This document shows, in pieces, positions 1 to 20,445 of a DNA stretch of 20,956 nt. The DNA comes from a virus, in the IMG/VR virus record IMGVR_UViG_3300025853_014522, positions 1 through 20,956 of that record; one strand, given 5' to 3'. Each line of letters begins with the position of its first letter. Position 1 is the stretch's first letter. Under the pieces are notes generated by a model. The model searched no databases, was not told the origin of the DNA, and saw only the letters and a list, made by a program, of their open reading frames with translations. The position numbers were made by a program, and so were the translations under genes.

Positions 1-430
1 CACCAATCAACTCAACATCTGTGATGACCAGTTCATAGTCAGGTCCGTCGAATCCCAAATTGCGTTGGTTGCAGCAATACCCTGCCCGAATCAGATAATC
101 CCCGGCGTTCAGGTTCGCAACAATTTTTGACGACACACACTGATCAGTTGAGTTGTGGTTACCGTCATCATCTTGGGTGATCAGCGTCCCAGCCGTTTCA
201 GGCCCATCGTCGTACAACCACAGGTACGGGTCGGCTCCACCCTCGTTGCAGGCTCGATTAGAGTTTCCGTAGATATATACGGTTTTCGCCTCGGTAAGAC
301 TGAATGTCCATTCGGATTCTTCAGTAACCGTGTACGAGGCGGCGTTTACAGCGTTTGGCGCAACAAAAGCAAAGATTGCGGTGAGCCAAAAAATCCAACT
401 TCCGCGTCGTCGAGCATAGGCGCGACGCAT
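1..430 (-). CDS. Secreted protein with PPC-like beta domain, C-terminus cut by window edge
   Basis: Open minus-strand frame starting at ATG 430-428 and running without a stop to the left edge (143 codons seen). The start overlaps the stop of the upstream 93-residue gene by one base (TGATG), suggesting translational coupling. The N-terminus is a classical Sec signal peptide: Arg-rich residues 2-9, a hydrophobic core around 12-25 (WIFWLTAIFAFVAP) and a likely signal-peptidase I site after V-N-A near residue 33. The mature part is beta-rich with 'YLWLYDDG', 'TQDDDGN' and 'NLNAGDYLIRAG', the layout of bacterial pre-peptidase C-terminal (PPC) type domains; four cysteines (CNEG, QCVSS, GYCC) could form disulphides. 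An exported phage protein next to fibre genes might act on or decorate the host surface, but the function is not known. The domain call is by eye; the signal peptide is firm. Confidence 0.7.
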   Translation of the reverse strand, partial: MRRAYARRRGSWIFWLTAIFAFVAPNAVNAASYTVTEESEWTFSLTEAKTVYIYGNSNRACNEGGADPYLWLYDDGPETAGTLITQDDDGNHNSTDQCVSSKIVANLNAGDYLIRAGYCCNQRNLGFDGPDYELVITDVELIG

Positions 431-711
431 CAAATCAGCCTGTTAGGGCCTTCAAGTTTATTGACAAGTTGCATCAAACGACCAATAAGGTTGGTCAAAA
501 GATCATAAACATGTCGGGAAGGATCCGTTTCAGGAATATACGAATCGCTCTCTTCATCAGACCAAAGAATAGGGAGATCCGCAATATTCTCGACCGATTC
601 GAAATCAATTCCGAGAGAAGCCGACAACTTGATGATTTCGCCTTCGATTTCCTGACGTGTTCTAATCAGAATTCGACGTTTTTCATCGTCACTGAGAGAA
701 ATTGAATACAT
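430..711 (-). CDS. Small acidic helical protein, 93 residues, unknown function
   Basis: ATG start at 711 preceded by a very good ribosome-binding site (GGGAGAGGTGA, four bases before ATG). The protein is acidic and predicted helical, with an N-terminal helix (residues 5-33), a loop rich in Asp/Glu/Ser (45-68) and a second helix (68-88, HVYDLLTNLIGRLMQLVNKL). The segment 'ASLGIDFESVENI' resembles the 'GIDPADL' turn of the small proteins at 11384-12603, so it may be a distant member of that family; the resemblance is weak. It sits between the long collagen-like fibre gene (24 bases upstream) and the secreted protein (1-base overlap). No function can be assigned. Confidence 0.72.
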   Translation of the reverse strand: MYSISLSDDEKRRILIRTRQEIEGEIIKLSASLGIDFESVENIADLPILWSDEESDSYIPETDPSRHVYDLLTNLIGRLMQLVNKLEGPNRLI

Positions 712-3291: not shown

Positions 3292-3669
3292 TTACGGCGT
3301 CTCTACGATCGCGTTGATGGTCATGTTGACGACTGAAGCAGTGCTCGCACGCACCCAAATTTTGTCGCCATCAGATTGGTTTGAGTCGTAAGCCACGACG
3401 AGAGAGAAGTTAACCAAAGTTGTTTCGTTGGCAGCCACAGTGAAACTGGCGAAAAGTTTATGAGATGCTGCGGGAGCCACCGTCCCAGCCGGCGTAAGCC
3501 ACAAATCAATGGTCTGAGCAGAAGCGCTCGTATTGGTAAAGATCATCTGCTTAATGATGATCGTCTCGTTGAGTCCTGCCTCGTACGAATAGTTTGCGGG
3601 GGGCGTTGACGAGTTAGTAGTCGTTGCAAGCGCTGCGGGCCCGAAAACTCGGGTTTGCTGTAGAGCCAT
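3292..3669 (-). CDS. Small beta-sandwich-like virion protein (125 aa)
   Basis: The protein is rich in Ala, Thr, Ser, Asn and Val, with almost no Cys and alternating hydrophobic strands ('ETIIIKQMIFTNTSASAQTIDLWL', shortened here: IIIKQMIFTN ... TIDLWLTP; 'KLFASFTVAANETTLVNFSLVV'; 'KIWVRASTASVVNMTINAIVE'). This composition and pattern is common in small decoration, head-fibre or tail-associated proteins of aquatic phages, but I cannot name the family. Start ATG at 3669 has a clear ribosome-binding site (AGAGGAAC, six bases before ATG). It is followed after nine bases by the 236-aa fibre gene, which supports a structural role. Function beyond virion component is not known. Confidence 0.72.
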   Translation of the reverse strand: MALQQTRVFGPAALATTTNSSTPPANYSYEAGLNETIIIKQMIFTNTSASAQTIDLWLTPAGTVAPAASHKLFASFTVAANETTLVNFSLVVAYDSNQSDGDKIWVRASTASVVNMTINAIVETP

Positions 3670-3723: not shown

Positions 3724-3741
3724 TTTCAGGACTTCCTGAAA
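3724..3741 (-). terminator. Perfect 7-bp inverted repeat at a gene end, possible weak terminator
   Basis: TTTCAGG-ACTT-CCTGAAA is a perfect 7-bp stem with a 4-base loop, and it contains the stop codon of the 284-aa gene. It stands at one of the longer gaps of the operon (3670-3725), just before the virion genes. No U-tract follows on the transcribed strand, so termination may be partial or the hairpin may be an RNA-processing or stability element. Confidence 0.35.
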
Positions 3742-4580
3742 GGCCAAAACCTTCGCTTTTTGGGCTGTTCCAGATGCGCCAGATATGGGCATTCCTTGTC
3801 AGCCTTACGCTGGGCGATGCGATATTTCCTGCTATGAACCAAGGGGTCGTAAGCGGTGCCCATACCCCTAGATCTCATAAGGCGATGAATTGAATCGTCC
3901 CCATACCCGACCGAAGTCCGAGGATAACGCGGGAAAGGGATGATGTGAACGATGGGCTGACCATACGGAATGGTGAAATCTTCGTCCTCGTAGATGTTTA
4001 ACACCCAGTTGACGTGGTGATAGAAGTCGGTGTGGACCACTCCCGGCATGATCGTCCAGTTTCTGCGCCCCTCCCAGTAAACCGGAAGCACCATGCAGGA
4101 CCACCCGGGCGCAGTTTTAAGTTGCCACGGGTTGACAATTTTTACCCAGTTGGCTTCTTTCAATTTCCGATCCTCGGTCGCCGGTATTTCGCCGGTTTGA
4201 TGGAAGGAAAAAGACTGGATTTCGAAAAGGTTGTCTGGGCTCATCTGGGGATTCTCCGGAGAAAATCCTTGCTCGTTCGTCATCCATCGAGCGTCCCAGC
4301 CTTGACCGGTGATGTTTCTCCTGATTTGGACTTCTGCTGGCAGCCTAAATGTCATGCCAAGGGAAAGGAAATCTTGTGTTCCTTGACATCTTTTGAGGGA
4401 TCCATCAGCGACTTCGAGGTTGTGAAACCACTCAGGCCAACCCAATGCGTTGTCCACCGGGGTTGACGCCTCTTCGTACATCCGATTCGACTTGGGGACA
4501 ACAATAATTTGGCCCGGCAGAGGTTCAACGTCGTGAATGGTCTTCGCTACAATAAGATCTTCTTGTTTGATCCGCCGCAT
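3726..4580 (-). CDS. DUF6065-like protein (284 aa), function unknown
   Basis: The central region (about 145-218) carries 'NPWQLKTAPGWSCMVLP', 'TIMPGVV', 'HHVNWVLNI' and 'FTIPYGQPIVHIIPFPR'. The same order of motifs (TPPG, PL.G, MNWK, 'VFPAGMPFMFF') is seen in the better-conserved DUF6065-type gene at 18074-18802, so I read the two as remote homologues with a beta-barrel-like core. The N-terminal 100 residues contain 'GWPEWFHNL' and 'MTFRLPAEVQI'. The C-terminus is basic (KKRRFWPFRKS). The gene sits between the degenerate methyltransferase (18 bases upstream) and the virion genes, with a hairpin at its stop codon. No catalytic residues can be recognised. The ribosome-binding site is weak, so the start at ATG 4580 is likely but not certain. 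Confidence 0.7.
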   Translation of the reverse strand: MRRIKQEDLIVAKTIHDVEPLPGQIIVVPKSNRMYEEASTPVDNALGWPEWFHNLEVADGSLKRCQGTQDFLSLGMTFRLPAEVQIRRNITGQGWDARWMTNEQGFSPENPQMSPDNLFEIQSFSFHQTGEIPATEDRKLKEANWVKIVNPWQLKTAPGWSCMVLPVYWEGRRNWTIMPGVVHTDFYHHVNWVLNIYEDEDFTIPYGQPIVHIIPFPRYPRTSVGYGDDSIHRLMRSRGMGTAYDPLVHSRKYRIAQRKADKECPYLAHLEQPKKRRFWPFRKS

Positions 4581-4598
4581 GACTTGAACACTACTACT

Positions 4599-5312
4599 TT
4601 ACGAGTTGCGTGTCAGAACACCGATCCCTAGCCCGGATGGAATCAAACTGAAGGAAAATCCCGACATTTCCTTTAGATCTAAATAAAGTGAGTAATAGTC
4701 GTGATTTTCTCGGTACTTAAAGAGATTACCGTGATCAGTAGCGCTCAACATGACCATTGTCCCCGACGCGGTCAAAAACGAAGCAAGAGTTTTGAGAATA
4801 TCGATATCGTGAGCAACGCTTGGAACACTTACCAAAATGCAATCATATGATGAAGGCAGAGTTCCAGAATCGATATCTTGCCACGAGACAGTCGAGTAGT
4901 CACCGATAGCACTCGTCCAAGTTTTCTCAGCGTGAGCCAAGTGCACGTCATTGCTGACGACGAGCGATTCAAAATTTTCGGTGGCAAGTAGCGGCAGGAG
5001 CCCGGGGTTTCCAACGCTCAAAACAGATTTCGGTGAAGAAGTACGAACAATCGCCTCCGCAGAGGTCATAAGAGAACTCAGCATTGTCGAAAACCTGAAC
5101 GAGCCTGTGGAAAACATCTCGTAGACCATGAGTTCATGCACTTGGCCAGTGGCCTCGCGGTTACGATTCATCCCAAGATCAATCTCGGCCTGTGCGGCAG
5201 CCCTGCAAAAAGCAAGAAAATCTGCGGACTCGACAAAATCTGACCACTTCGACGAGGACAGGGAGTTGGCGAAAGTTGCTACTTGCACTGGTTGATCAAA
5301 ATTCTCAGACAT
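4599..5312 (-). CDS. Degenerate class I methyltransferase-like protein, cassette copy 1 (237 aa)
   Basis: Rossmann-like C-terminal part: 'PKSVLSVGNPGLLPLLA' (94-110) at the SAM-loop position, 'SLVVSNDVHLAHAEK' (116-130) at the acidic-strand position, 'YDCILVSVPSVAHDIDILKTLASFL' region (156-180, motif IV area) and 'SGTMVMLSATDHG' (183-195). The usual GxGxG loop is altered to G-N-P-G-L. The N-terminal helical part has 'NREATGQVHELMVYEMFS' (51-68), matching 'SREIATGDDHYFYRHRSYV' of the 260-aa protein at 12593-13375; the two are paralogues. It overlaps the upstream small helical gene by 8 bases. Likely a SAM-dependent methyltransferase or a non-catalytic derivative; the substrate is unknown. It lies downstream of a 2OG oxygenase and the halogenase, which suggests a shared modification pathway. 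Confidence 0.7.
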   Translation of the reverse strand: MSENFDQPVQVATFANSLSSSKWSDFVESADFLAFCRAAAQAEIDLGMNRNREATGQVHELMVYEMFSTGSFRFSTMLSSLMTSAEAIVRTSSPKSVLSVGNPGLLPLLATENFESLVVSNDVHLAHAEKTWTSAIGDYSTVSWQDIDSGTLPSSYDCILVSVPSVAHDIDILKTLASFLTASGTMVMLSATDHGNLFKYRENHDYYSLYLDLKEMSGFSFSLIPSGLGIGVLTRNS

Positions 5313-5592
5313 TTTCCGCCATCCACGCTTTCACCAGATCACGTTGATAAATAAACTTCCGGGCACTTTGGTTCCAGCGATACTTCTTGCGTAGTGCCTG
5401 CCGCTGGTCGACCGAAGAAAGCGACTGCATTGGCTGTTCGTTTAGATCGAAGTATGTCGCACTCGATGACAACAATTCGTCAAGAGTTACGTCGTTAGCG
5501 TCAAACGATTCTTCACAGCCGACGTAAGCCATAAGACGATACAACTCAGAAACACAGTAGTTGAGATCCAAAAAAGCATCGTATTTAGGCAT
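5305..5592 (-). CDS. Small helical protein, cassette copy 1 (95 aa)
   Basis: Small, mostly helical protein starting MPKYDAF. It resembles the 111-aa protein at 12268-12603: both begin M-P-K-aromatic/His, both have an acidic turn followed by a strand-helix ('DANDVTLDELL' here, 'ANIDTVTIDEII' there), and both end in a basic helix closing with K-[AW]-W-[ML]-x-E-N ('RDLVKAWMAENV' here, 'LHLAKWLSENEY' there). It overlaps the preceding 51-aa gene by 8 bases and the following methyltransferase-like gene by 8 bases. The constant partnership with the methyltransferase-like protein suggests a subunit or adaptor for it; this is inference from synteny, and no family is recognised. Confidence 0.75.
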   Translation of the reverse strand: MPKYDAFLDLNYCVSELYRLMAYVGCEESFDANDVTLDELLSSSATYFDLNEQPMQSLSSVDQRQALRKKYRWNQSARKFIYQRDLVKAWMAENV

Positions 5593-5740
5593 CTTGTATC
5601 AATTCTTCCTCAGGCAGTGACGCATCATCAAAAATAGACGTCTTTATGTCGTATAAAGGACAGTCCATGACCACGCCATCAGTTCCGACAAAAAGATCAA
5701 GCCCGCTGTCGTACAACTGGGGCGATGGGAAATCACTCAT
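5585..5740 (-). CDS. Tiny acidic protein, cassette copy 1 (51 aa)
   Basis: Short open frame, ATG at 5740-5738 to TAA at 5587-5585. The product begins MSDFPSPQLYDSGLDLFVG and ends acidic (LPEEELIQDA). It overlaps the 2OG oxygenase upstream by 8 bases and the small helical gene downstream by 8 bases, filling what would otherwise be a 140-base gap. The end of the frame (GCC TAA inside ATGCCTAA) is identical to the end of the 75-aa gene at 12048-12275, and both proteins finish with '[S/T]-x-[L/I]-F-D ... E-E-E ... A'. This matching synteny is the main evidence that it is a real gene. The function is unknown. Confidence 0.68.
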   Translation of the reverse strand: MSDFPSPQLYDSGLDLFVGTDGVVMDCPLYDIKTSIFDDASLPEEELIQDA

Positions 5741-6479
5741 TTACGTCCCCGTTCTCCAAATCCCCATCAATTGTACCATTGTCAGACTTGAGGGGAGTGG
5801 GATCATTTTCGCGATAAACAGGAGGCGGCTTTGCATCAGTTGAGCACATAATGAAAGTGCTAATCATCCACTTGTCATCAGATAGCGGTGTTAAACCCGT
5901 ATGTGGGTGCGTCCAACTTGTTGGGAAAAGAGTAATGCGACCGGCGCGCGGAGGGACACCGACCTCATGCTGCGGAAAATATGTTTCTCCCCCATCTTCA
6001 ACATCGTTTAGGTAAATGACGGCTCCGAGGACTCGGTTGCCGACATCTCCCGGAGGATCCCATGGGAAGGAATCGCAATGCGTTCGATAGAAGCCGTACG
6101 AGCGAGCGTAATGCTGAAGACGAAACCCGGAGTCGTGAATATTTGGCCAAGGCCATATCGATGGATAAGTATCACGATATTTGCAAATGGCTCTGGCTAG
6201 ACCGGCAGCGATTTCCTGATCGGCGGTAAGAAACCTCTCAGTTGCAAGTCCTGCTGCCTCCAAGTTGCCGACCGAATAATTGAAATCCATCGAATTCTTG
6301 ATGTTCGGCATGAAGCCACCCATCGTTGGCCCGACGTCAAACAACTCCTTGTAGAACAATTTGCATTCTTCAACGAGTTGCTTAGACAGCGATTTCCTGA
6401 ACATGTTGTCAGCAACAAGGATATGGCCGTTTTTACCAGCCGGGAACCAATATTTTGCGTCCTTCACTAGGACATCCAC
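5733..6479 (-). CDS. 2OG-Fe(II) oxygenase, prolyl-hydroxylase-like (248 aa)
   Basis: Non-haem iron dioxygenase with the double-stranded beta-helix of the P4Hc (prolyl 4-hydroxylase alpha-like) superfamily. Such enzymes couple 2-oxoglutarate decarboxylation to hydroxylation of a peptide or small substrate. Visible residues: iron ligands H134-x-D136 ('YRTHCDSFPW') and distal H193 ('TSWTHPHTG'), with K203 at the 2OG-carboxylate position. Family strand motifs are 'GAVIYLNDVEDGGETYFP' (152-169) and 'PRAGRITLFP' (177-186). The start is uncertain: GTG 6479 overlaps the halogenase stop by 13 bases, while GTG 6467 would give a TAGTG stop/start overlap with AAAGGTGG upstream; numbering here uses 6479. 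It lies directly behind the halogenase, so the two may act on the same molecule. Confidence 0.9.
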   Translation of the reverse strand: MDVLVKDAKYWFPAGKNGHILVADNMFRKSLSKQLVEECKLFYKELFDVGPTMGGFMPNIKNSMDFNYSVGNLEAAGLATERFLTADQEIAAGLARAICKYRDTYPSIWPWPNIHDSGFRLQHYARSYGFYRTHCDSFPWDPPGDVGNRVLGAVIYLNDVEDGGETYFPQHEVGVPPRAGRITLFPTSWTHPHTGLTPLSDDKWMISTFIMCSTDAKPPPVYRENDPTPLKSDNGTIDGDLENGDVNE

Positions 6480-7927
6480 CTTTCAAGCGCATCCCGATGA
6501 GGAATCACGGGTTCGGACATTTTTTGATTGAACATCGACTCAACACTACCCCCAACCGGGTTCAGTAAGTCGCGTTGACGCATGAGCGACATAGACGTTT
6601 CAGAATCGATCAGCCCTTGCCCCTGAGCGACATGCCAAAAATGGAACGCTTGGAACAACTCGAAGTTTGTCGATGGAATGTCGTGATGTTCGAAACCTCG
6701 ACGCTTGCACACTTCGAGCAAGGTTTCTAGGAGTTGCGGCTTCGGTCGATTTTTCTGGTGCGACCAAAATGGAGTGTCGTCCCTGTTGGAGACATAGTGA
6801 AGACAGATCATGGCCGCAAGGTTCTCCATGATGCTAACGAAAATGCGGTTGTATTCTCGACGCGTCCAATCGTCATTCTGATCGTAGACGCCCAAATACG
6901 ATGTGAGCAAAAACGTTTGCTGAATGCTTGAAGAAATCGATGTTGCTTCTAGAGGCTCAATAAAGTTAGAACTAAGGCCAATCGCGACGCAATTTTTAAT
7001 CCATGGGGTTTTGACGTATCCCGGATCGTACGAAATAAAACGCGGATTGTCAATGTCGAAACCACTCACCCTTGACGCCTCTTCAACAATTTGGTCATGG
7101 GATGCATAATCCGAAGCAAACACGTAACCGTTACCGCGCCTGCTCTGGGTTGGGATTTCCCACATCCACCCGCATTCCATGGCTTGGGCCAGCGTGTATG
7201 GCTTAATTTCGCGATTGTCCTCTGCTGGAGTCTGAAACACCATTGCCGAGTCGTTGGGAAGATATTCGAGATGTGATTCCCACCCCGGATCGCCTAACTT
7301 CGAAAGAATTTTCTTATGGAAACCGGTTGCATCGATAACGAAATCACATGCGTGAGTTCGGTCTTCTAACTGCAGTGCTTCGATCTCTCCTGTTTCCGGT
7401 TGGAGTACGACATCAAGAACCGTGCCTTTAATAAATGAAACACCCGAGTCGGAGGCGTGTTCTGTCAAAAAAGTGTTCAACTTGAACGTATCGAAGTGAA
7501 ATTGGTTGCTCTGCTTAAGCGTGTTCTCACCCAAGTCCTGCACCTGATTCATTATTAGTGCTGGGTGAGCGAAGAACGGTGTCAACCGTTTGCCCATCGC
7601 ATTCACATAGTTGTAGCCAGCGTTGAAAGACGACGAGTGAATCTGGCCTCCGGAAATACTATGAAAATAATCTCCGTCTACATTCCAATCTTTGAACCGA
7701 ATCCCGAACTTGAACGTCGCTTCGGTTTTTTTGACCATGGCACTACGTTTGATTTGGCAAAACTGCTCAAACGTTGTCCAGTGCTCTGTGCTCCCCTCCC
7801 CGACTCCAATAATTGGAACCTTGTCAGAAGAAATTACAGATATGGAATAAGTCGGATAAGCCTTGATCAATATGTTGGCTGCGATGAGGCCAGCAGTGCC
7901 CGAACCAACGATAGCGATCCTCTTCAT
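6467..7927 (-). CDS. Flavin-dependent halogenase, tryptophan-halogenase family (486 aa)
   Basis: FAD-dependent enzyme that makes hypohalous acid from reduced flavin, oxygen and halide and passes it through a tunnel to the substrate. Length fits the family (about 500-540, slightly short). Visible: N-terminal FAD site G8-S-G10-T-A-G13; 'IGVGEGS' (40-46); catalytic Lys at K73 in 'ATFKFGIRF', the place of K79 in PrnA/RebH; the diagnostic W-x-W-x-I-P motif at W254-M-W256-E-I258-P259; 'EPLEATS' with E327 at the catalytic glutamate position; and 'DDTPFW' (383-388). All key residues are present, so it should be active. A flavin reductase is not seen nearby and is presumably supplied by the host. Viral halogenases of this family are known from cyanophages (VirX1). 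The substrate (free aromatic, or aromatic residue in a protein) cannot be read from sequence. It starts three bases after the stop of the upstream oxygenase-like pseudoenzyme. Confidence 0.95.
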   Translation of the reverse strand: MKRIAIVGSGTAGLIAANILIKAYPTYSISVISSDKVPIIGVGEGSTEHWTTFEQFCQIKRSAMVKKTEATFKFGIRFKDWNVDGDYFHSISGGQIHSSSFNAGYNYVNAMGKRLTPFFAHPALIMNQVQDLGENTLKQSNQFHFDTFKLNTFLTEHASDSGVSFIKGTVLDVVLQPETGEIEALQLEDRTHACDFVIDATGFHKKILSKLGDPGWESHLEYLPNDSAMVFQTPAEDNREIKPYTLAQAMECGWMWEIPTQSRRGNGYVFASDYASHDQIVEEASRVSGFDIDNPRFISYDPGYVKTPWIKNCVAIGLSSNFIEPLEATSISSSIQQTFLLTSYLGVYDQNDDWTRREYNRIFVSIMENLAAMICLHYVSNRDDTPFWSHQKNRPKPQLLETLLEVCKRRGFEHHDIPSTNFELFQAFHFWHVAQGQGLIDSETSMSLMRQRDLLNPVGGSVESMFNQKMSEPVIPHRDALERWMS

Positions 7928-7930
7928 GGC

Positions 7931-8509
7931 TTACTTCAGATAGCGCGTCAAGTAAAGAGTTTCGCCAGAAGTTCCGAATTTCTTTCTGAACGGGAAATCG
8001 GCAGGAGCAATAATAATTTCCGTTGGCGTAATCGGGATACGTAAATCGTCAAAATTTGTGAAGTTCACAAACCCACCGTCATGACCCAGACAGGTGATAA
8101 CAGCAACCGCGCCAATTGAGTGAGGCGCCTCGATTGCTGCGCTTTCGCAACCTCCGTCTGAAGGATTTTTCGAAATTTTAATCAAATCACCTTGACTTGA
8201 TTCGTGCAAGTCAGGCTCCCATTCAGCGATGTAATCTTTCAGTGCTGCTTCAGATGCGTTCTCGTACTCGCTTGAATACCAGTCTTTGATGGATTCAAGA
8301 TGACCCCAAATCTTTGGTTGAAACAAAGCATCCAAAGAAGCACGCGACGAATTGGCCAAGCCAGCCTGATTGCTGCTGCCACCACCGAAAGAGATAAATC
8401 CCCAATCGCGGGAGGCCTCCTTCATGATTTCGTCAACTGGAAGTAAATCCGGGTTCATGAACCCGCTGTACTTAGTGACAAAGTCTGTAATATTTTCGAT
8501 TGTGCTCAT
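7931..8509 (-). CDS. Catalytically dead 2OG-oxygenase homologue (pseudoenzyme, 192 aa)
   Basis: The C-terminal half aligns without gaps to the active oxygenase immediately upstream: 'HSIGAVAVITCLGHDGGFVNF' region (130-150) against 'RLLSAVAFVNDDFEGGELQF', and 'IPITPTEIIIAPADFPFR' (158-175) against 'IHPKTGRLVLFPSSFIYR'. At the iron-ligand positions H-x-D is replaced by C121-x-S123 and the distal His by K176, and the 2OG-binding Lys is replaced by T184. The frame is intact and the fold residues are kept, so this is a preserved protein without the chemistry rather than decay. ATG 8509 is chosen because it overlaps the upstream stop as ATGA; a TTG three codons earlier is less likely. A role as partner, regulator or substrate-presenting subunit of the neighbouring enzyme is inferred. 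Confidence 0.78.
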   Translation of the reverse strand: MSTIENITDFVTKYSGFMNPDLLPVDEIMKEASRDWGFISFGGGSSNQAGLANSSRASLDALFQPKIWGHLESIKDWYSSEYENASEAALKDYIAEWEPDLHESSQGDLIKISKNPSDGGCESAAIEAPHSIGAVAVITCLGHDGGFVNFTNFDDLRIPITPTEIIIAPADFPFRKKFGTSGETLYLTRYLK

Positions 8510-9099
8510 ATCAACCAAGTCACTAAAGAGTACTTGACACCTTCCTCGACTGGAATAGACGAATGTCGGTAAATGAAAGATGACGGAAAAAGAACTAGGC
8601 GCCCAGTTTTAGGATGAATGCTTTTATTGAAATACTGGAACTGAAGTTCTCCGCCTTCAAAATCGTCATTTACGAAAGCAACTGCACTCAGTAATCTGGG
8701 GGAGTTCGGGCCGTGATCATAGTGCGCTTTATACTGGCCACCTACACCGTATTTATTTAGACCCCAAACCTCATCCTTGTTCAGGTGAAGATCATGTTCA
8801 TCTCGATACTCGATAATTTTTTTATCAATCTCCCACAGCATATTTCTGAACGGAACTGTCATTGGATGCGTGTCGAGTTCGGGCGTTTCAATCATAGGAT
8901 TCATGTGGAGAAACTGTGAAGTCCTGTAATTGCTTACAGTTGAAGACCCAGTTTTACCCTGCGTCCACGATGTCGGAAAGTCAGACAGATACGGATAAGT
9001 CTCAACCGACTCAACCAAACTCTCGCAGTCGTCTGCGATATCCAGATCGTAAACTTGGATAAGAGATTCAAGTTTTCCTCGAATTGATGCTGTTGTCAT
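8506..9099 (-). CDS. 2OG-Fe(II) oxygenase, P4H-like (197 aa)
   Basis: Non-haem iron dioxygenase of the prolyl-hydroxylase-like group. Numbering from ATG 9099: H126-x-D128 ('YKAHYDHG'), distal H179 ('IYRHSS') and K189 ('GVKYSLVTW') for 2OG. Core strands are 'LLSAVAFVNDDFEGGELQF' (136-154) and 'PKTGRLVLFPSSF' (163-175). ATG 9099 is preferred over an upstream in-frame start near 9144 because it overlaps the stop of the preceding gene in an ATGA junction and because the extra 15 residues (Arg-rich) have no counterpart in the family. It is followed by a sister gene in which all catalytic residues are replaced. It is closer in sequence to the oxygenase at 18804-19511 than to the WW[RK]-type oxygenases further right. 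Confidence 0.88.
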   Translation of the reverse strand: MTTASIRGKLESLIQVYDLDIADDCESLVESVETYPYLSDFPTSWTQGKTGSSTVSNYRTSQFLHMNPMIETPELDTHPMTVPFRNMLWEIDKKIIEYRDEHDLHLNKDEVWGLNKYGVGGQYKAHYDHGPNSPRLLSAVAFVNDDFEGGELQFQYFNKSIHPKTGRLVLFPSSFIYRHSSIPVEEGVKYSLVTWLI

Positions 9100-9515
9100 A
9101 TAACTTCGATTTCCTCTACGGCAATTACCCCGTCTTGGTCGCAAGCCTTGAGTTTGTACTTACCGGGGACTTGCAATTGGATACAAAAAACTGATTTATG
9201 TTTCCCGGATAGAACCTCATACGGAAATGTAAAGATCTGGCCATTCTCGTGCTCGCACTCAAGGTACACATCTTTTGTTGGATGGAACTCGTCAACGTAA
9301 TGAGCGGTGATTTTCCTGTTCCTTCCCGGCTTTCTTGGTTTGACAGAGAACCATTGCTCCATGGGGATGCCAATCAAGCAGACATTGTCTCGATCAAAAT
9401 CAAGATTTAAAGTTCGGGGTGAATCGCCCAATTGAACGGAAACGTTCCACTCTTTGGCCAGATGCTCTGCTTCGGGCAGCCTCTGTTCATCAGGGCAATA
9501 AACAACACGGTCCAT
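9096..9515 (-). CDS. Hypothetical beta-rich protein (139 aa)
   Basis: No family recognised. Residues 1-25 ('MDRVVYCPDEQRLPEAEHLAKEW') look alpha/beta. The C-terminal part has alternating strands typical of an Ig-like beta-sandwich: 'ITAHYVDEF', 'KDVYLECEHENGQIFTFPYEV', 'SVFCIQLQVPGKYKLKACDQDG' (shortened here to key residues) and 'VIAVEEIEV'. Start ATG 9515 lies one base after the stop of the 53-aa coiled-coil gene (TGA C ATG), and its stop overlaps the next oxygenase start (ATGA), so it is in the same translational unit as the oxygenases. A substrate-binding or virion-associated role is possible but not supported by any motif. Confidence 0.7.
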   Translation of the reverse strand: MDRVVYCPDEQRLPEAEHLAKEWNVSVQLGDSPRTLNLDFDRDNVCLIGIPMEQWFSVKPRKPGRNRKITAHYVDEFHPTKDVYLECEHENGQIFTFPYEVLSGKHKSVFCIQLQVPGKYKLKACDQDGVIAVEEIEVI

Positions 9516-9516
9516 G

Positions 9517-9678
9517 TCACTCGGCCGGCGGTTCCGCCATTTGCTCCTGTAGTTCTTGGATCTGACGCTGAGCAGTCTGAACCATCGATCGAAGAATCGT
9601 GTTATTCAACGACAACTGTTTGACCTGCTCGGAAAGGTCCTCAATCACGGCTTTGGTGTCGAATGGCATGTCACTCAT
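9517..9678 (-). CDS. Tiny coiled-coil protein (53 aa)
   Basis: Short open frame from ATG 9678-9676 to TGA 9519-9517. The start overlaps the stop of the TauD-like gene upstream by 8 bases, and the stop is one base before the next ATG, so it fills the only gap between these genes. The product begins MSDMPFDTKAVIEDLSEQVK and continues as one amphipathic helix with Leu/Ile/Val at heptad-like spacing (residues 10-47, including 'LSLNNTILRSMVQTAQRQIQ'), ending 'AEPPAE'. A parallel coiled coil for dimerisation is likely. Small proteins of this type are common in tailed phages; the function here is unknown. Confidence 0.65.
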   Translation of the reverse strand: MSDMPFDTKAVIEDLSEQVKQLSLNNTILRSMVQTAQRQIQELQEQMAEPPAE

Positions 9679-10630
9679 GAGCGTTCACATTAGCAGAGTC
9701 GGGGTCCGCGAAATACTCAGCGTATTGGGCCACGCCAACGGGGAAAGCCCAATATCCTTGGAAATACCGTTGACCCGGTGTAAAGCCGCCACGCACGCCA
9801 TGAGCCATCCTGAACAAATCAGGAATCACTACGTCGCCTTCGGCCCAGTCCCAGAAAATTTGATTCTCTTTGACCGACACGATTTCACGGTTTACCCAAT
9901 CTTGCATCCTAAAAAAAAGATCGAGGTCGTTTGCCTCCGGGCGTTCTCCGTCGATGCTGTAAATGTGGTGCTGGCAACCAAACCATTCACGGCAGGGACA
10001 GAGACGCAGGACATCAAATCCAAAATCTGGATGATGTTCGACAACTTGACGGGGGAACGCCAAAACGTCACGCCCGTCTCCTGCTGGGACAGCAAGGACG
10101 TTCCGCAGATTGTCGCGCTGAGTTCTGAACGACTCGATGTCTTCTGTCGTGGAGGGGAACGGCGGGTAATGAACTGCTGCCGCCCGCTCGGCGATTTCAC
10201 GGAAATTTTCCGGCATTTTGTCAAGCAACTTCGACATGTCGACAAAGCCCGTTGATCCCGTTCCGGGAGCAGCGCTAAATTTATACATGAACCAAGCAGC
10301 AGCGGCCTGTGTGCGCAACTTCGAAATTCCTTCGATATGCCACTGGATCAAGTCCTCGGAGACGTCGACTTCGCGTTCCGCCAGAACGTCGTCGTACTGT
10401 TGGAGGTAGCCCCAACTACCTGAAAGGCTTCCGTCGGGTTGAGCCGGGTGGGGCGTCCACGAAAGTTCTTGTGCGAACGCATCAAGAAGTCGTATTGGGT
10501 CTACTGCTGGATCGACGCAATTGCTATCTCGGAAACCGATAAGCCCATGCTCGCGGAAGATGTCAATGAATTCGCTGGGGTTGCTTTCGACATCTTCGAT
10601 GGTTGCGCCAACAACCATGAAGTTATGCAT
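9671..10630 (-). CDS. TauD/TfdA-type 2OG-Fe(II) dioxygenase with H-x-E ligands (319 aa)
   Basis: Member of the taurine/clavaminate dioxygenase superfamily, a different branch from the P4H-like enzymes in the window. N-terminal 'IFREHGLIGFRD' (24-35) is the family opening. The iron site is H98-x-E100 ('QWHIEG') with distal H277 ('RMAHGVRGGF') and R288 ('GQRYFQGYW') near the 2OG carboxylate. 'GSTGFVDMSKLLDKMPENFR' (125-144) is the conserved lid/strand region, and 'WAEGDVVIPDLFRMAHG' (262-278) is the C-terminal signature. Glu in place of the usual Asp is unusual for the family but still a possible ligand. The start is ATG 10630, two bases after the upstream stop. The substrate is unknown; the family hydroxylates small molecules such as taurine, amino acids and alkyl sulphates. 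Confidence 0.85.
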   Translation of the reverse strand: MHNFMVVGATIEDVESNPSEFIDIFREHGLIGFRDSNCVDPAVDPIRLLDAFAQELSWTPHPAQPDGSLSGSWGYLQQYDDVLAEREVDVSEDLIQWHIEGISKLRTQAAAAWFMYKFSAAPGTGSTGFVDMSKLLDKMPENFREIAERAAAVHYPPFPSTTEDIESFRTQRDNLRNVLAVPAGDGRDVLAFPRQVVEHHPDFGFDVLRLCPCREWFGCQHHIYSIDGERPEANDLDLFFRMQDWVNREIVSVKENQIFWDWAEGDVVIPDLFRMAHGVRGGFTPGQRYFQGYWAFPVGVAQYAEYFADPDSANVNAHE

Positions 10631-10632
10631 TT

Positions 10633-11295
10633 TCAGCCTTCGGGGTCGGGCTCCGCCAAAAACATGTTGATCGCGGCGCGAATCCGCTCAAGCGCTTCTT
10701 CGGGGGAGTAGTTGTCCTTCCCCATTTCGAAGTTGGCCGGGAGAAGGCTGCCATTTGTGAATCGACAAACACGCTTGCCGTCCTTGGAAACGATGAACTT
10801 CTCGAAATTGCCGAGGATGGGGGCAGTTCCCGCACCGAGGCGCTTGTACAGAGGGTGTGGTTCAAAGGTGTCGTCGTCATCATCGCGACTGTAGCGTGAC
10901 GTGACCAGTTCGGTAAAGGGCAGTCGGACCCGGTAGTGACTGTGGGCAAACCGCTCACAATCCTCAGCGCTGCTTCGAGAGTCTTTGAATTCGCCGTAAC
11001 CAAACTCGCAGTAATCGTTCGTGGGGACACAAACGATCGAAAAGCCAGTATTGGCGTAGTCGTACTGGAGGACCTGAAGGATCGGGTACTGCATTGAGTT
11101 GCCGCATTCGCCAGTGACGTTGACAATCATGGTCACCTTGCCTTTTCGGTCGGCTAAGGCGTTTTTGTCGCCGGTGACGTCGCGCACTTCGATGTCGTAA
11201 ACGCTTTCGCCATCGGAAGTCGGACCAAGGTCATGAATGCTCGTCAAAACGTCAAGCATTTCCTGTGAAATAACGGTTTCTGTGCTCATCGTCAT
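10633..11295 (-). CDS. Glutathione-peroxidase-like (thioredoxin-fold) protein with altered active site (220 aa)
   Basis: Thioredoxin-fold protein matching the GPx layout: 'VYDIEVRDVTGDKNALADRKGK' region (32-53), 'VTMIVNVTGECGNSMQY' (54-70) with the peroxidatic Cys C64, 'GFSIVCVPTNDY' (84-95), 'HPLYKRLGAG' (147-156) and 'ILGNFEKFIVSKDGKRVCRF' (160-179). In GPx enzymes a Cys-Gln-Trp-Asn tetrad activates the Cys. Here Gln is D94 and Trp is G162, while Asn (N163) remains, so activity may be reduced or redirected. C64 is encoded as Cys, not TGA. Acidic insert DDDDD (138-142). This is the first gene of the leftward operon, next to the divergent control region; a second ATG two codons in (11289) is an equally possible start. 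It may protect the phage or iron oxygenases from peroxide, which is inference. Confidence 0.75.
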   Translation of the reverse strand: MTMSTETVISQEMLDVLTSIHDLGPTSDGESVYDIEVRDVTGDKNALADRKGKVTMIVNVTGECGNSMQYPILQVLQYDYANTGFSIVCVPTNDYCEFGYGEFKDSRSSAEDCERFAHSHYRVRLPFTELVTSRYSRDDDDDTFEPHPLYKRLGAGTAPILGNFEKFIVSKDGKRVCRFTNGSLLPANFEMGKDNYSPEEALERIRAAINMFLAEPDPEG

Positions 11296-11383
11296 GCCAT
11301 TATCTTACATGATGTTCGTTCTAGCCGATGAACGTGACTGGTATACTTACAAGGCACACACCGTTTCCTACGGGGGTTTACAC
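11296..11383. promoter_or_regulatory. Divergent intergenic control region
   Basis: The only head-to-head gap in the window (88 bases). Rightward: an extended -10 box TGGTATACT (11339-11347) with no convincing -35, followed by a 36-base leader to ATG 11384. Leftward: AAGATAAT can be read on the minus strand just before ATG 11295, a possible -10 very close to the start codon. The rightward site fits a bacterial sigma70 promoter, so the plus-strand genes could be read by host RNA polymerase. No operator symmetry was seen. Confidence 0.5.
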
Positions 11384-11602
11384 ATGGTTGCCTTGAACAA
11401 CATTTCTGACGAATACAAGAATTCGGCAAAAACGCTTATCATCGCCGGCAAAGAGCAGCACGTCTGGACTTACGCCGTTGTCTGCGGGATCGACCCCGCC
11501 GATCTCGGTGATTCCTACACCGCTCCCGAAGGTTCGGACACCTACCACGCCGAACTGTCGCGTTTGCTCGGCGAACTCGCTGACCTGAAGGCTGGTGCAT
11601 GA
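11384..11602 (+). CDS. Small helical 'G-I-D-P-A' family protein, member 1 (72 aa)
   Basis: ATG 11384 is chosen over an in-frame start at 11237, because that longer frame would run through the divergent gene and the promoter. A run of five G lies eight bases before ATG. The protein is two helices around a fixed turn: helix 'AKTLIIAGKEQHVWTYAVVC' (14-33), turn 'GIDPADL' (34-40), a variable strand and loop, then helix 'AELSRLLGELADLKA' near the C-terminus. The same plan is seen in the next two genes and, further diverged, at 12268-12603. It overlaps the next gene by four bases (ATGA). The function is unknown. As the first gene behind the rightward promoter it should be well expressed. Confidence 0.75.
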   Translation: MVALNNISDEYKNSAKTLIIAGKEQHVWTYAVVCGIDPADLGDSYTAPEGSDTYHAELSRLLGELADLKAGA

Positions 11603-11814
11603 TGATTTTTTCTGATCTTTTCCACTCAGACGAGAAAGCCACAGCCAAGTCTGAGGCGCTTCGCATCATTGAAGAGAACGTTTTCCGCTGCTCGTGGCAG
11701 GAAGGCATCGACCCTGCCGACCTCGACTCGGCCACGTTCACATCTGACGGCTCGCTCGGGCAGGATGAACTCCGCACTTGGCTTGATCGGCTAGACTGGG
11801 TTCAGACGCTCTGA
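11599..11814 (+). CDS. Small helical 'G-I-D-P-A' family protein, member 2 (71 aa)
   Basis: Two ATG codons in a row (11599 and 11602); the first gives an ATGA overlap with the preceding stop. N-terminal helix 'KSEALRIIEENVFRCSWQE' (17-35), turn 'GIDPADLDS' (36-44), then 'ATFTSDG' and the C-terminal helix 'QDELRTWLDRLDWVQ'. Turn and helix spacing are the same as in member 1 (11384-11602). No enzymatic motif. The tandem arrangement of similar short genes points to duplication and divergence. Function unknown. Confidence 0.75.
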   Translation: MMIFSDLFHSDEKATAKSEALRIIEENVFRCSWQEGIDPADLDSATFTSDGSLGQDELRTWLDRLDWVQTL

Positions 11815-11832
11815 TAGAAGTGGAGACCCAAC

Positions 11833-12051
11833 ATGGCACTAAGCGCATCACGTCAAGCGCAAGCGGAATCTGAAGCGAGAGCATTTCTCGAATATTCAAT
11901 TTACGTTCTGTGCCTGCTTCTGGGTGTTGACCCTGCTTCAGTAGACCATCCTTACACTATCCCTGTCGCCGAAGGTCATCCGCAGTACGACCAGTACCTG
12001 TCACTGCAGAAACAACTGGAGGCGTTGAGCGCGATCCCTGCTGCGTCATGA
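11833..12051 (+). CDS. Small helical 'G-V-D-P-A' family protein, member 3 (72 aa)
   Basis: ATG 11833 with GTGGAG about eight bases upstream. Helix 'ESEARAFLEYSIYVLCLLL' (12-30), turn 'GVDPASVDHPYTIP' (31-44), C-terminal helix 'YDQYLSLQKQLEALSAI' (52-68). The first helix is more hydrophobic than in the other members, so contact with a membrane or a hydrophobic partner is possible, but there is no clear transmembrane span with flanking charges. It overlaps the following 75-aa gene by four bases (ATGA). Function unknown. Confidence 0.75.
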   Translation: MALSASRQAQAESEARAFLEYSIYVLCLLLGVDPASVDHPYTIPVAEGHPQYDQYLSLQKQLEALSAIPAAS

Positions 12052-12275
12052 ACTTCAGCAGCGAATCACTTCGCCGCTCTCGCCCAATCAAATGGGAAGA
12101 CCGCCTCGCTCAACACGGCCTGTACACGACCCCAAAGGGCCAAGAGGAAGACAGCACAGAAGTTTTTTTCTGGTCTTCAGAGGCTGGAGCGGCAGTGCGA
12201 CCGGGAACAGGTGAAGCGTTTATTTGCGGAACCACTCTTTTCGACCCCTTAGAGGAAGAAGCCAGCAATGCCTAA
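12048..12275 (+). CDS. Small acidic-tailed protein, cassette copy 2 (75 aa)
   Basis: ATG overlaps the previous stop (ATGA). The N-terminus is basic ('SLRRSRPIKWEDRLAQHGLY'), followed by 'VFFWSSEAGAAVRPGTGEAF' and an acidic end 'TTLFDPLEEEASNA'. The stop lies inside the start region of the next gene (ATGCCTAA), an 8-base overlap identical to the 5585/5592 junction in cassette copy 1. The C-terminal pattern '[S/T]-x-[L/I]-F-D ... E-E-E ... A' matches the 51-aa protein there. No known family. It may be a partner of the helical and methyltransferase-like proteins encoded next. Confidence 0.7.
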   Translation: MNFSSESLRRSRPIKWEDRLAQHGLYTTPKGQEEDSTEVFFWSSEAGAAVRPGTGEAFICGTTLFDPLEEEASNA

Positions 12276-12603
12276 GCACACCTCGACTGACGCCAAGCCT
12301 CTCTATGACAACGCCGCAAATATCGAATGGATCGAAGGTGAGGTCGCAGTCGCAATGATGATTGCCGGGCTCGACCCAGCAAACATCGACACGGTAACCA
12401 TCGACGAGATCATCGCAGGAATTCTGGACGTTTTTGATTATGGCGAGTCGATGCTGACCGAAGATGCCATCGAGGGCAAAAACCGGTATTACATCGGATC
12501 TCAGGCGTTCATCCGTAAACAGCAAAACAAACTCACTAATGTGGCTCGCCGCCACTGGCGTGAACTGCACCTAGCGAAATGGTTGAGCGAAAATGAGTAT
12601 TAA
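12268..12603 (+). CDS. Small helical protein, cassette copy 2 (111 aa)
   Basis: Homologue of the 95-aa protein at 5305-5592 and a longer relative of the 'G-I-D-P-A' proteins. Helix 'NIEWIEGEVAVAMMIA' (18-33), turn 'GLDPANID' (34-41), 'TVTIDEIIAGILDVFDY' (42-58), then a C-terminal extension 'GSQAFIRKQQNKLTNVARRH' ending 'LAKWLSENEY'. The C-terminal helix is shared with the copy-1 protein and absent from the 71-72 aa members. It overlaps the upstream gene by 8 and the methyltransferase-like gene by 11 bases. By synteny it is the standing partner of the methyltransferase-like protein. Function unknown. Confidence 0.77.
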   Translation: MPKHTSTDAKPLYDNAANIEWIEGEVAVAMMIAGLDPANIDTVTIDEIIAGILDVFDYGESMLTEDAIEGKNRYYIGSQAFIRKQQNKLTNVARRHWRELHLAKWLSENEY

Positions 12604-13375
12604 TCCTTCGATCGCAAGAAACCGAGTAGCGCGTTACCTTTCCAACGGGCAGACCGGTGAAGAATGGGATTCCAAAGTTGGGATCATGTCCGATTATGGG
12701 ACAGTCGGATCAAACCTGAACGATCTCGCTGCCGTTGACAGCCGAGAGATCGCCACGGGAGATGACCACTACTTCTACCGGCACCGCTCCTACGTCGGCA
12801 TGGCGCCCGAATGGATCGAATCAGCATGGGCGATGGGCGCGATGACCACAACCTTTGTCGAGATGTATCAGGATTTTTCATACGTCAAAGACGAGCCGAT
12901 TGTCGAGTTGACCTCTGGGCTCCCCCCGTTCTGGCCAATCGATGTCAACCTCCGAACAGGAAATGTGCAGACGTACATCCTCAACGAGGTAGAAGCAAGA
13001 ATTTTCGAAAAAACGCTTGAGACGTCTGCCGACTATCCGGATTACGAAGACCTTGTTTACGGTCAGGTCACGTATCAGGAAATCATGGACGGATCGCTCG
13101 GCGAGATGTTCGACGTCATTCGCCTCGGCGTACACCAGTTCGTCAACTGCACCGAAACAATCATTGACAAATTGTTTGACTGCCTAAAACCCGGTGGTCT
13201 TTTCATGGGTCGCGGCATGGCGCATGGAACCGGAATGTATCTCGATGACCTCACGGTTCATCAATCGTTTTGGGCAGACCAGAGCCGTTACATTGCGAGC
13301 AAAGAAAACGTGTATTCTCGTCATGTGGCCTTCCAAAACGGATTGGTTATCGCTCGCAAACTACCCACAAACTAA
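12593..13375 (+). CDS. Degenerate class I methyltransferase-like protein, cassette copy 2 (260 aa)
   Basis: Paralogue of the protein at 4599-5312. Shared features: 'SREIATGDDHYFYRHR' (50-65), the strand/loop 'EPIVELTSGLPPFWPIDV' (101-118) where SAM would bind, 'TYILNEVEARIFEKTLE' (127-143), 'MFDVIRLGVHQFVN' (172-185) and the typical 'LFDCLKPGGLFMGRG' (194-208) of class I methyltransferases, ending in 'FQNGLVIARK'. The SAM-binding glycine loop is not canonical (S-G-L-P-P), so catalysis is doubtful. ATG 12593 overlaps the upstream stop. The next gene, nine bases later, is a 2OG oxygenase. Substrate unknown. Confidence is high for the gene and moderate for the fold. Confidence 0.72.
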   Translation: MSINPSIARNRVARYLSNGQTGEEWDSKVGIMSDYGTVGSNLNDLAAVDSREIATGDDHYFYRHRSYVGMAPEWIESAWAMGAMTTTFVEMYQDFSYVKDEPIVELTSGLPPFWPIDVNLRTGNVQTYILNEVEARIFEKTLETSADYPDYEDLVYGQVTYQEIMDGSLGEMFDVIRLGVHQFVNCTETIIDKLFDCLKPGGLFMGRGMAHGTGMYLDDLTVHQSFWADQSRYIASKENVYSRHVAFQNGLVIARKLPTN

Positions 13376-13384
13376 GGAACGAAA

Positions 13385-14401
13385 ATGGCTCGGCTATACG
13401 GACCCGAAGACAACATCAAGCACGCCTACCACAAGTTGACTGACAGCGATTTCAAACTGATCGCCGATCTCGAATACACGAATCACCCCGGTGGTGTCGT
13501 GCATTTCCACGGAGCAGTTGATTTCGACTCGGACGTTTTGCTGCCCTACATCGACATGATGTCGTACGTTCCTTCATGCGGTCTGGAAATCATCAAAGAT
13601 GACGAAGGCAACATGCTCCATGGCGAAACCTTCGACGGGAAAATCGTCTCAATGGACGACCTCCTAGCCCTCCCGATGCGGGTCGGCGGAATGGGAATGC
13701 CAGAGCCGGTCAATCCCACAACGCCAGAGAACATTCGAGAGATTTTCGAAAATTTCGAAGAGACGATGTACTTCGCGCTCTGTCGATACGTCGACCTGTA
13801 CCCGCTCGTCGTGAACCAGTTGTGGTGGAGAGCCCGAGGCCATTGCCTAAAGTACCTGCCCGGAGCATCACTTGGGATTCACAACGACAACGACACCAAC
13901 TCGCTGATCATCGATGGGCAGCGCCACCTGTCTGGCCGCGAGATTGCGATGTATCAGGTGACCAACTGTTTGGTGTATCTCAACGAGGAGTACGAGGGCG
14001 GAGAGATGCACTTCCCGTATCTCGACATTAGTGTCAAGCCGAAGCGTGGCGACATGATTTTCTTCCCGGCGAACTACATGGGAACCCATGGGGTTGCCCC
14101 AGTTACTTCCGGCGAGCGTTACACCTATTTGGCTCAGTACGGCCACGGTGGTCTTCACAAGTACGAAGTGAAAGAGCCGAACGAGAGCGTCGACTGGCTG
14201 TGTCCAGTGTGGATGCCGTTCTTGTATCAGGACACCGCGCGGTTCATGCAGTCCGAATATTCACATTTCTCAAGCGAGAACAGTCGGGCTGTCGGACTTG
14301 ACGCCGCAACTGTCCACAATCAGGAGCGCTCAACTGAGGGTCCTCCGACTGGCGAGAAACTTGAGTACGGAGAGACTTGGCCGATCCCTGTTAGGCGTTA
14401 A
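13385..14401 (+). CDS. 2OG-Fe(II) oxygenase, WW[RK]-type (338 aa)
   Basis: P4H-like dioxygenase with a long N-terminal region and a C-terminal extension of about 85 residues. Iron ligands H166-x-D168 ('GIHNDND') and H235 ('MGTHGVAPV'), 2OG-binding R245 ('SGERYTYL'). Family marks: 'NQLWWRARGHCLKYLPGAS' (144-162), 'NCLVYLNEEYEGGEMHFPY' (194-212) and 'KRGDMIFFPANYM' (220-232). Closest relatives in the window are the minus-strand genes at 14398-15057 and 15646-16494. ATG 13385 follows AAGGAACG; the upstream stop codon is part of that site (TAAGGAACGAAAATG). Its stop lies in the 12-bp palindrome shared with the convergent gene. It is the last gene of the rightward island. Confidence 0.92.
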   Translation: MARLYGPEDNIKHAYHKLTDSDFKLIADLEYTNHPGGVVHFHGAVDFDSDVLLPYIDMMSYVPSCGLEIIKDDEGNMLHGETFDGKIVSMDDLLALPMRVGGMGMPEPVNPTTPENIREIFENFEETMYFALCRYVDLYPLVVNQLWWRARGHCLKYLPGASLGIHNDNDTNSLIIDGQRHLSGREIAMYQVTNCLVYLNEEYEGGEMHFPYLDISVKPKRGDMIFFPANYMGTHGVAPVTSGERYTYLAQYGHGGLHKYEVKEPNESVDWLCPVWMPFLYQDTARFMQSEYSHFSSENSRAVGLDAATVHNQERSTEGPPTGEKLEYGETWPIPVRR

Positions 14402-14405
14402 CGCC
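14394..14405. terminator. 12-bp perfect palindrome holding both convergent stop codons
   Basis: GGCGTTAACGCC is its own reverse complement. The central TTAA gives TAA stops to the genes on both strands (14399-14401 plus, 14398-14400 minus), so the two coding regions overlap by four bases. A hairpin would have only four base pairs, so this could be a weak bidirectional end signal, a protein-binding site or just a compact junction. No U-tract on either side. Confidence 0.35.
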
Positions 14406-15057
14406 AAGCAAATTCTGTTGAACCTTCTTGCGGGCCGTGCCCGAAGAATTCAAGGTACGAGACACGCTCGCCTGATGTGACAGGCTCTACGGCATGGGTG
14501 CCCAAATATCCTGCCGAGTAGATAAAGGCACTTCCCGCTTTGGGGGCAATATCTAGTCCGGCATACTTGAACAGTAGGTTCCCGCCTTCGCAGCGATCTT
14601 TCAAAATCAAAGATCCTGTCAGCACAGTAAAAATGGCGTTATTGCTTTCTTTACCGTCACCGATGAGGTTGTCATGATGGAAACCCATGTTTCCGGTTAC
14701 GGCATAGGTAGCGACATGCGGATGAGCCCTCCACCAGATGCATGGCTCAACCTCTGGAAAGTGCTGGCAGTAAACCTTGATGCATTCGCCCATTCCGTTG
14801 TACACGGACTGATAAAAATCAATATCTTCCTGTGAGGCGTTTTCTTCAAGACGCAAGATGCGGCTTGGAGATTCGTTTACCTGTTCTGCGGTAAAGCGGT
14901 AACCGCCTCGGTTGAGGTAGGTACCGTCATCCTGCAGAATATAGTCGCTCGGCTCATTAGCCTTACGGCGTTCCAGCCAGCCATCAAAAAAATCTGGGTC
15001 GATCTCGACGACATCTTGGAACTCCATGACCCCGTAGCCATGAAGGATCGATTTCAT
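14398..15057 (-). CDS. 2OG-Fe(II) oxygenase, WW[RK]-type (219 aa)
   Basis: P4H-like dioxygenase. H127-x-D129 ('GFHHDN'), distal H188 ('LGTHAVEPV'), R198 ('SGERVSYL'). 'CIWWRAHPHVATYAVTG' (106-122) and 'GSLILKDRCEGGNLLFKY' (148-165) are the family strands. It is shorter than its convergent relative at 13385-14401, lacking most of that protein's N- and C-terminal extensions. It starts in an ATGA overlap with the dehydrogenase-like gene upstream, so these two are probably co-translated. Substrate not known. All catalytic residues are present, so activity is expected. Confidence 0.9.
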   Translation of the reverse strand: MKSILHGYGVMEFQDVVEIDPDFFDGWLERRKANEPSDYILQDDGTYLNRGGYRFTAEQVNESPSRILRLEENASQEDIDFYQSVYNGMGECIKVYCQHFPEVEPCIWWRAHPHVATYAVTGNMGFHHDNLIGDGKESNNAIFTVLTGSLILKDRCEGGNLLFKYAGLDIAPKAGSAFIYSAGYLGTHAVEPVTSGERVSYLEFFGHGPQEGSTEFAWR

Positions 15058-15644: not shown

Positions 15645-15645
15645 T

Positions 15646-20169: not shown

Positions 20170-20445
20170 TTAGAGTCGCTTGTAAATCGCTTTTCTTACT
20201 CGATGCTCAGCAACAAGATGGAAGGTGGCGATACCCCAAAGCAGATGAACGAGAAGAGAGCCGCGTCGGCTGGCAGACCCACGCCAGTAGGCACGAGTCA
20301 ACGTTTCGACGTGCTTGGTTCTAATCGCGTATACGTCATAACACACTATGTATATGACTAGCAAAGCCCAACCGATCGCGCCAGTTCTTCGACTGCCTTT
20401 ATCAATCTCGACCGGCCCCCAATACTTTTTTACCAATGGGGGCAC
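20170..20445 (-). CDS. Small two-TM membrane protein, GTG start (91 aa)
   Basis: Two hydrophobic segments, residues 22-41 (GAIGWALLVIYIVCYDVYAI) and 62-79 (GSLLVHLLWGIATFHLVA), separated by a basic loop ('RTKHVETLTRAYWRGSASRR') and ending basic (HRVRKAIYKRL). 'YDVYAIRT..ETLTRAYWR' recalls a membrane-protein family I have seen in actinobacterial phages ('DVWA ... ETLS.AFWR'), a recollection I cannot test here. Start GTG 20445 is supported by the strong upstream GGGGAGGGAG. A holin or other membrane-active role is possible because of size and topology, but no lysin gene is next to it. Confidence 0.72.
   Translation of the reverse strand: MPPLVKKYWGPVEIDKGSRRTGAIGWALLVIYIVCYDVYAIRTKHVETLTRAYWRGSASRRGSLLVHLLWGIATFHLVAEHRVRKAIYKRL

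Follow-up and report, generated by a model that had tools for sequence, protein, structure and literature searches.

A duplicated three-gene cassette with a degenerate O-methyltransferase fold beside halogenase, oxygenase and tail-fibre-like genes of aquatic phages

What viral halogenases and the many 2-oxoglutarate (2OG) oxygenases of phages do in nature is unknown, and the roles published for them, namely antibiotic protection, DNA repair and control of the 2-oxoglutarate level, were proposed on the basis of annotation (PMC2984593, PMC3037559). The characterised viral halogenase VirX1, which comes from the cyanophage Syn10, accepts bulky aromatic substrates (PMC8407142). Here we analyse the 20,956-base virus record IMGVR_UViG_3300025853_014522 (the whole stretch, called the window below), in which a cassette of three genes, A, B and C, occurs twice on opposite strands (copy 1 with A1, B1 and C1; copy 2 with A2, B2 and C2). 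The genes next to it encode a halogenase, oxygenases and tail-fibre proteins, a setting that offers a hint of how phages might employ their halogenases.

The described proteins nearest to C are the cation-dependent O-methyltransferases (PF01596; COMT, caffeoyl-CoA O-methyltransferase, TrmR), with which it appears to share the entire fold, including the N-terminal helices and the C-terminal strand pair. Unlike these enzymes, C has lost the S-adenosylmethionine (SAM) motif, the ribose acid, the metal ligands and the catalytic Lys in nearly all members, lies below Pfam detection and is coupled to A and B. The cassette also recalls phage tail-fibre chaperones and assembly proteins, which are encoded behind fibre genes, by way of the s proteins; these are small and helical, follow the collagen-like gene directly in most related loci and have a motif that B carries. 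Compared with known tail-fibre chaperones, one B member reaches phrog_1002 at E 0.17, which is noise level, and the s members give no match. We know of no counterpart of C among tail-fibre chaperone or assembly systems.

No family in Pfam or PHROGs matches the cassette, and PADLOC gave no match for the nine small proteins tested. C was not found in isolated phages (INPHARED), where all matches were at chance level, nor in GTDB genomes by pattern search, and no description of the cassette was found in the literature searched. We regard A-B-C as a previously undescribed three-gene set of aquatic phages.

An old duplication of a kept three-gene unit

The order A-B-C recurs in 23 copies on 18 distinct viral contigs, as the original prediction had expected of other phages. 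Every non-truncated locus with C has a small helical open reading frame (ORF), B, directly before C, and an acidic ORF, A, before B; the A slot encodes 44-89 aa with a net charge of -6 to -13 in 23/23 copies. The triplet stands in three contexts, A-B-C-halogenase-g284, halogenase-2OGa-A-B-C-g284 and s-array-A-B-C-2OGc, and searches seeded with C yielded only these. The order within the triplet stays constant while its position relative to the halogenase shifts. Since the same order is found in all these copies and in three gene contexts, it is well supported that A-B-C is a kept unit.

Nonsynonymous differences (pN) are far below synonymous ones (pS) in A, B and C, so the three are real genes under strong purifying selection, with pS near enough to saturation that ratios of the two rates (dN/dS) are rough. 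Among A2 orthologues, pN is 0.09-0.30 against a pS of 0.61-0.89.

Compared pair by pair, the proteins of the two copies gave a clear result for B (BLASTP 4e-5; 0/500 shuffles as good), a marginal one for C (BLASTP 0.002; 0.8% of shuffles as good) and none for A (no BLASTP alignment; 35% of shuffles as good). For this reason relatives were gathered via the halogenase (80 loci) and 2OGc (6 loci), and iterated profiles were run over their ORFs. Profiles seeded with C1 and with C2 each recover the other copy at 1e-24 to 1e-33, and B1 and B2 are likewise united in one family. A check free of iteration, in which the copy-1 C profile was compared with the copy-2 C profile, gave E 6.6e-7 and a probability of 92%. 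The copy-1 and copy-2 sets of A proteins show no cross-match by profile. Kinship had been predicted for all three pairs; it stands for B and C, which form common families, and fails for A, where homology of A1 and A2 is not demonstrated and the gene is kept only by position, size and acidity. Structures were predicted once per family (C1 and B1), and the paired proteins were compared by profile rather than by two models.

In a tree of C the copy-2 clade has a support of 100/100 and the copy-1 clade of 92/87, and in other phages separate orthologues of either copy occupy the matching place. The duplication is therefore older than the divergence of these phages. The two copies also keep different company: copy 2 is consistently followed on its 3' side by 2OGc, which occupies this position in L007, L087, L089, L090 and L072 too, and the halogenase is the constant neighbour of copy-1-type cassettes. 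The shared B and C families, the order in other phages and the lack of a database match support the original prediction of a duplicated, undescribed functional unit.

An ORF check located the six predicted genes where they had been placed (Table 1), with A and B overlapping by 8 nucleotides in both copies, and B and C by 8 nucleotides in copy 1 and 11 in copy 2. The sequence details proposed as common signatures are not kept by orthologues: the ATGCCTAA junction gives way to A/B overlaps of 1, 4 or 8 nucleotides or to a gap, the MPK start of B is replaced by MGK, MGQ, MTK, MTIR or MAIR, and the W[ML]xEN end is lost. The junction and the start as a sign of recent duplication are ruled out by these orthologues; the common junction and start motif are coincidence or convergence. 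A 2OG oxygenase at one end of each copy, also predicted, is present in the window (5' of copy 1, 3' of copy 2) but is not universal. In L053 and L064 the cassette directly adjoins the halogenase, and no 2OG gene is labelled nearby. Copy 1 is accompanied most constantly by the halogenase rather than by a 2OG oxygenase.

Predicted folds of C and B and the lost active site

The AlphaFold2 (AF2) model of C1, built with 24 family members, has a predicted local distance difference test score (pLDDT) of 83.6 and a predicted template modelling score (pTM) of 0.84. Its top match in Foldseek is TrmR of B. subtilis (5zw3, E 2e-8), and comparison with VIA, in which ranks less than 1 Z unit apart are ties, places it with cation-dependent O-methyltransferases at Z 16.5 and a root-mean-square deviation of 3.9 over 194 residues. 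The structural matches are enzymes of this group along the whole chain. The C profile also aligns with eight annotated O-methyltransferases from plasmid records (hhalign E 8.6e-9, 154 columns), and the model has the class I methyltransferase fold of the COMT/CCoAOMT type. The best matches in a viral structure library are the uncultured Caudovirales proteins A0A6J5ND78, A0A6J5M8D5, A0A6J5RCS9 and A0A6J7X1E1 (query template modelling score 0.58-0.78), uncharacterised proteins that, judged by the models, are likely relatives of C.

The active site was read from 24 rows of the C family in the register of the hhalign alignment to the O-methyltransferases. SAM motif I (L-E-x-G-x-x-x-G) is missing: the Glu near it (position 100) is present in 1/24 and the second Gly in 0/24. 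The ribose acid, a Glu after strand 2, is kept in 2/24. The metal and catalytic residues (D-A-D-K, D-N) are gone as well, with the first metal Asp in 2/24, the catalytic Lys in 0/24, and the Asp and Asn of the D-N pair in 0/24 and 8/24; the curated PF01596 model gives no match for C. Because the SAM, metal and catalytic-Lys residues are lost, we read C as a degenerate relative and not a functional member of the O-methyltransferases, that is, a putative pseudo-enzyme with their fold. This bears out the original guess of a degenerate methyltransferase and makes it more precise: the fold is that of the cation-dependent O-methyltransferases, with the active site lost.

The C family keeps other residues instead, N121, D157, G184, D193xGxLY198 and H223. 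They stand at the ends of loops, where this fold accommodates its cofactor and substrate, and together with the strong purifying selection on C they would suit an alternative in which C retains enzymatic activity in a remodelled pocket, for another cofactor or substrate or for a small ligand, controlled by A and B. We consider this rather unlikely, given that D157 is the only invariant residue besides the start Met, that mean column identity is low (32%) and that no known alternative cofactor motif was recognised in C.

For B1, AF2 gives a model of three helices (pLDDT 85.6), for which Foldseek found nothing convincing in the PDB. B1 and the s proteins have the motif helix-G[LI]DP-x-x-[hydrophobic]-T in common, and the single-copy B family matches s at 1.7e-5 by hhalign. 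In broad terms, B would be a small helical protein of the s kind. In most related loci the s gene immediately follows the collagen-like gene, a place that B itself does not occupy, and s matches are confined to this region in the nine longer records searched.

Fibre and halogenase neighbourhood and a possible role of the cassette

In most related halogenase loci the genes follow the order g125-coll236-collagen-like fibre gene-s-g139-2OG-[slot]-halogenase-g284-2OG, where the slot before the halogenase holds A-B-C, a protein of about 360 aa or nothing. In the nine longer records the collagen matches fall mostly near the cassette, and 2OG matches are concentrated in this region. In the 137-kb record G002, halogenase, collagen-like genes, the gene for the 125-aa protein and copy 1 are all missing, and copy 2 is retained with 2OGc.

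Similar surroundings are found for halogenases of other phages. At the Syn10 VirX1 locus (L093, 3826-17661) two halogenases are flanked by Gly-rich fibre-like genes on one side and by several oxygenase-like genes in a row on the other. A homologue of the window's g284 is also present, and this neighbourhood suggests fibre modification. Unlike the window, it has no A-B-C profile match above E 0.02. A 73-aa protein after its g284 homologue matches B weakly (E 0.029); a C homologue was sought in Syn10 and not found, the gene after the 73-aa one having a 2OG-oxygenase-like sequence. The halogenase of P-SSM2 has tail-fibre assembly genes next to it, and that of actinophage DSL-LC01 has two collagen genes.

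We propose that A-B-C is a non-catalytic adaptor or holder serving a neighbouring oxidising enzyme, probably in tail-fibre modification, and give this a probability of about 40%. The three products would probably form one complex, to which C would contribute as a pseudo-O-methyltransferase, B as a small helical partner and A as an acidic microprotein, and which would most likely hold or adapt without catalysis of its own for the enzyme encoded next to it. There would be one set per enzyme, copy 1 for the flavin halogenase with 2OGa and copy 2 for 2OGc, a pairing suggested because G002 lacks the halogenase and copy 1 yet keeps copy 2 with 2OGc. The complex would thereby assist the adjacent enzyme in modifying a protein of the phage, with the collagen-like tail fibre as the probable target.

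A kept partner cassette in a kept fibre neighbourhood gives a testable alternative to the published proposals, oxidative tail-fibre modification with a pseudo-enzyme adaptor. Such modification, if it takes place, would make the oxygenase-rich regions in aquatic phage genomes easier to understand and would offer tools for protein-targeted halogenation. A more specific form, in which each dedicated halogenase or hydroxylase has an adaptor set of its own, whose pseudo-O-methyltransferase and two small partners pass the fibre on to it, is speculative and in our view doubtful; in that case the fibre would be the natural substrate of viral halogenases like VirX1.

Several points weigh against the adaptor proposal. 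Many halogenase loci are without A-B-C, and the cassette is therefore not required for the halogenase. The residues that C keeps (N121, D193xGxLY198 and H223) could form a new site, and C may not be inert. It is gene neighbourhood that points to the fibre as target, and we infer the interaction of A, B and C in a complex. G002 is a single record and may be incomplete, and the B proteins of copies 1 and 2 match s weakly (hhalign 0.0033, probability 10%).

The halogenase and the nine oxygenases of the window could also belong to a small pathway of the kind that makes ribosomally synthesised and post-translationally modified peptides, with A as the peptide substrate that they decorate and with C and B presenting it. 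A is tiny, an aromatic residue (mostly Trp) stands by eye at about the same place across copies, and VirX1 takes bulky aromatic substrates. On the other side, no domain of a protease, a transporter or a leader-binding protein was recognised when the proteins of the window were scanned with Pfam, A shows an acidic tail and no obvious leader and core, and A1 of the window has Tyr, not Trp, at the aromatic position; such a pathway seems to us unlikely. Among the counter-defence proteins of phages, small acidic ones are common. A unit for host takeover or counter-defence that just happens to lie in a variable genome region would fit such proteins and the optional presence of the cassette, but is improbable in view of the missing PADLOC match and of a cassette that stays with the halogenase, g284 or 2OGc across contexts and does not move freely. 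That the copies are alike by chance or loose paralogy and are not one unit agrees with the dissimilar A pair and the unconserved junction and start motif, but it is contradicted by the joined B and C profiles, by the order kept in 23 copies and three contexts and by the C tree, and can hardly be right.

Two further observations concern the halogenase loci. The slot protein of about 360 aa is of unknown family (L020:7366-8454, also in L034, L042, L054, L057 and L067) and ends, in L020 at least, in a helical tail that resembles s; it is not a B-C fusion, having no similarity to C and only the s-like tail. L077 and L083 hold four neighbouring halogenase genes per phage locus, around 9986-15000.

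Gene content of the window

The window encodes nine 2OG/TauD-type oxygenases, the flavin halogenase, a GPx-like protein, a DUF6065 protein and collagen-like fibre genes (Table 1). The ninth oxygenase (19518-20147) is under Pfam detection and was assigned via profile. A promoter scan of the divergent gap between the GPx gene and s1 found nothing, and the window has no tRNA. Between g284 and the DUF6065 protein there is a weak match (E 0.024), and close kinship was rejected.

Table 1 Coordinates of the cassette genes and their neighbours in the window.
Feature	Position	Strand	Evidence
A1, 51-aa small protein, acidic tail, net charge -11	5585..5740	-	ORF; acidic ORF in same slot of all 23 copies
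B1, 95-aa predicted three-helix protein	5305..5592	-	AF2 pLDDT 85.6; profile unites B1 with B2
C1, 237 aa, predicted degenerate cation-dependent O-methyltransferase fold	4599..5312	-	AF2, Foldseek, VIA, hhalign
A2, 75-aa small acidic protein, net charge -6	12048..12275	+	ORF; purifying selection in orthologues
B2, 111 aa, B1 relative	12268..12603	+	BLASTP, shuffles, profiles
C2, 260 aa, C1 relative	12593..13375	+	Profiles, tree
2OGa, 2OG-Fe(II) oxygenase, directly 5' of copy 1	5733..6479	-	PF13640 2.1e-11
Flavin-dependent (Trp-type) halogenase	6467..7927	-	PF04820 2.2e-93; VirX1 6qgm 3.3e-36; neighbourhoods
g284, 284-aa conserved phage protein, directly 3' of copy 1	3726..4580	-	phrog_7084
2OGc, 2OG-Fe(II) oxygenase, constant neighbour 3' of copy 2	13385..14401	+	PF13640 1.2e-10
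s1, small helical protein	11384..11602	+	Start MVALNN inferred from orthologues
s2, small helical GxDPA protein	11599..11814	+	
s3, small helical GxDPA protein	11833..12051	+	
s-family protein directly behind collagen-like gene	430..711	-	s profile 5e-9
Collagen-like, tail-fibre-like protein, 611 aa	737..2572	-	PF01391 4.7e-7; PHROG tail fibre 1e-4
Gly-rich fibre-associated protein (coll236), 236 aa	2572..3282	-	Same place in most related loci
Fibre-associated 125-aa protein (g125)	3292..3669	-	phrog_20100 5e-7; related loci

Among the oxygenases, 2OGc, 2OGd and 2OGe (13385-16494) are mutual close paralogues (hhalign 1e-84 to 1e-98), and 2OGb and 2OGf form a second paralogue pair with one member in each half of the window; the duplicated stretch may therefore exceed A-B-C. 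A small DUF7427 protein (PF24202 3.4e-8) is encoded at 20170-20445; along with the DSL-LC01 relative, it could point to an actinobacterial host. The contig end (20474-20826) carries a 24/36-bp tandem repeat that codes for GGK[NC]GGK on the plus strand or FPPHFPP on the minus strand, possibly another fibre-like or low-complexity protein.

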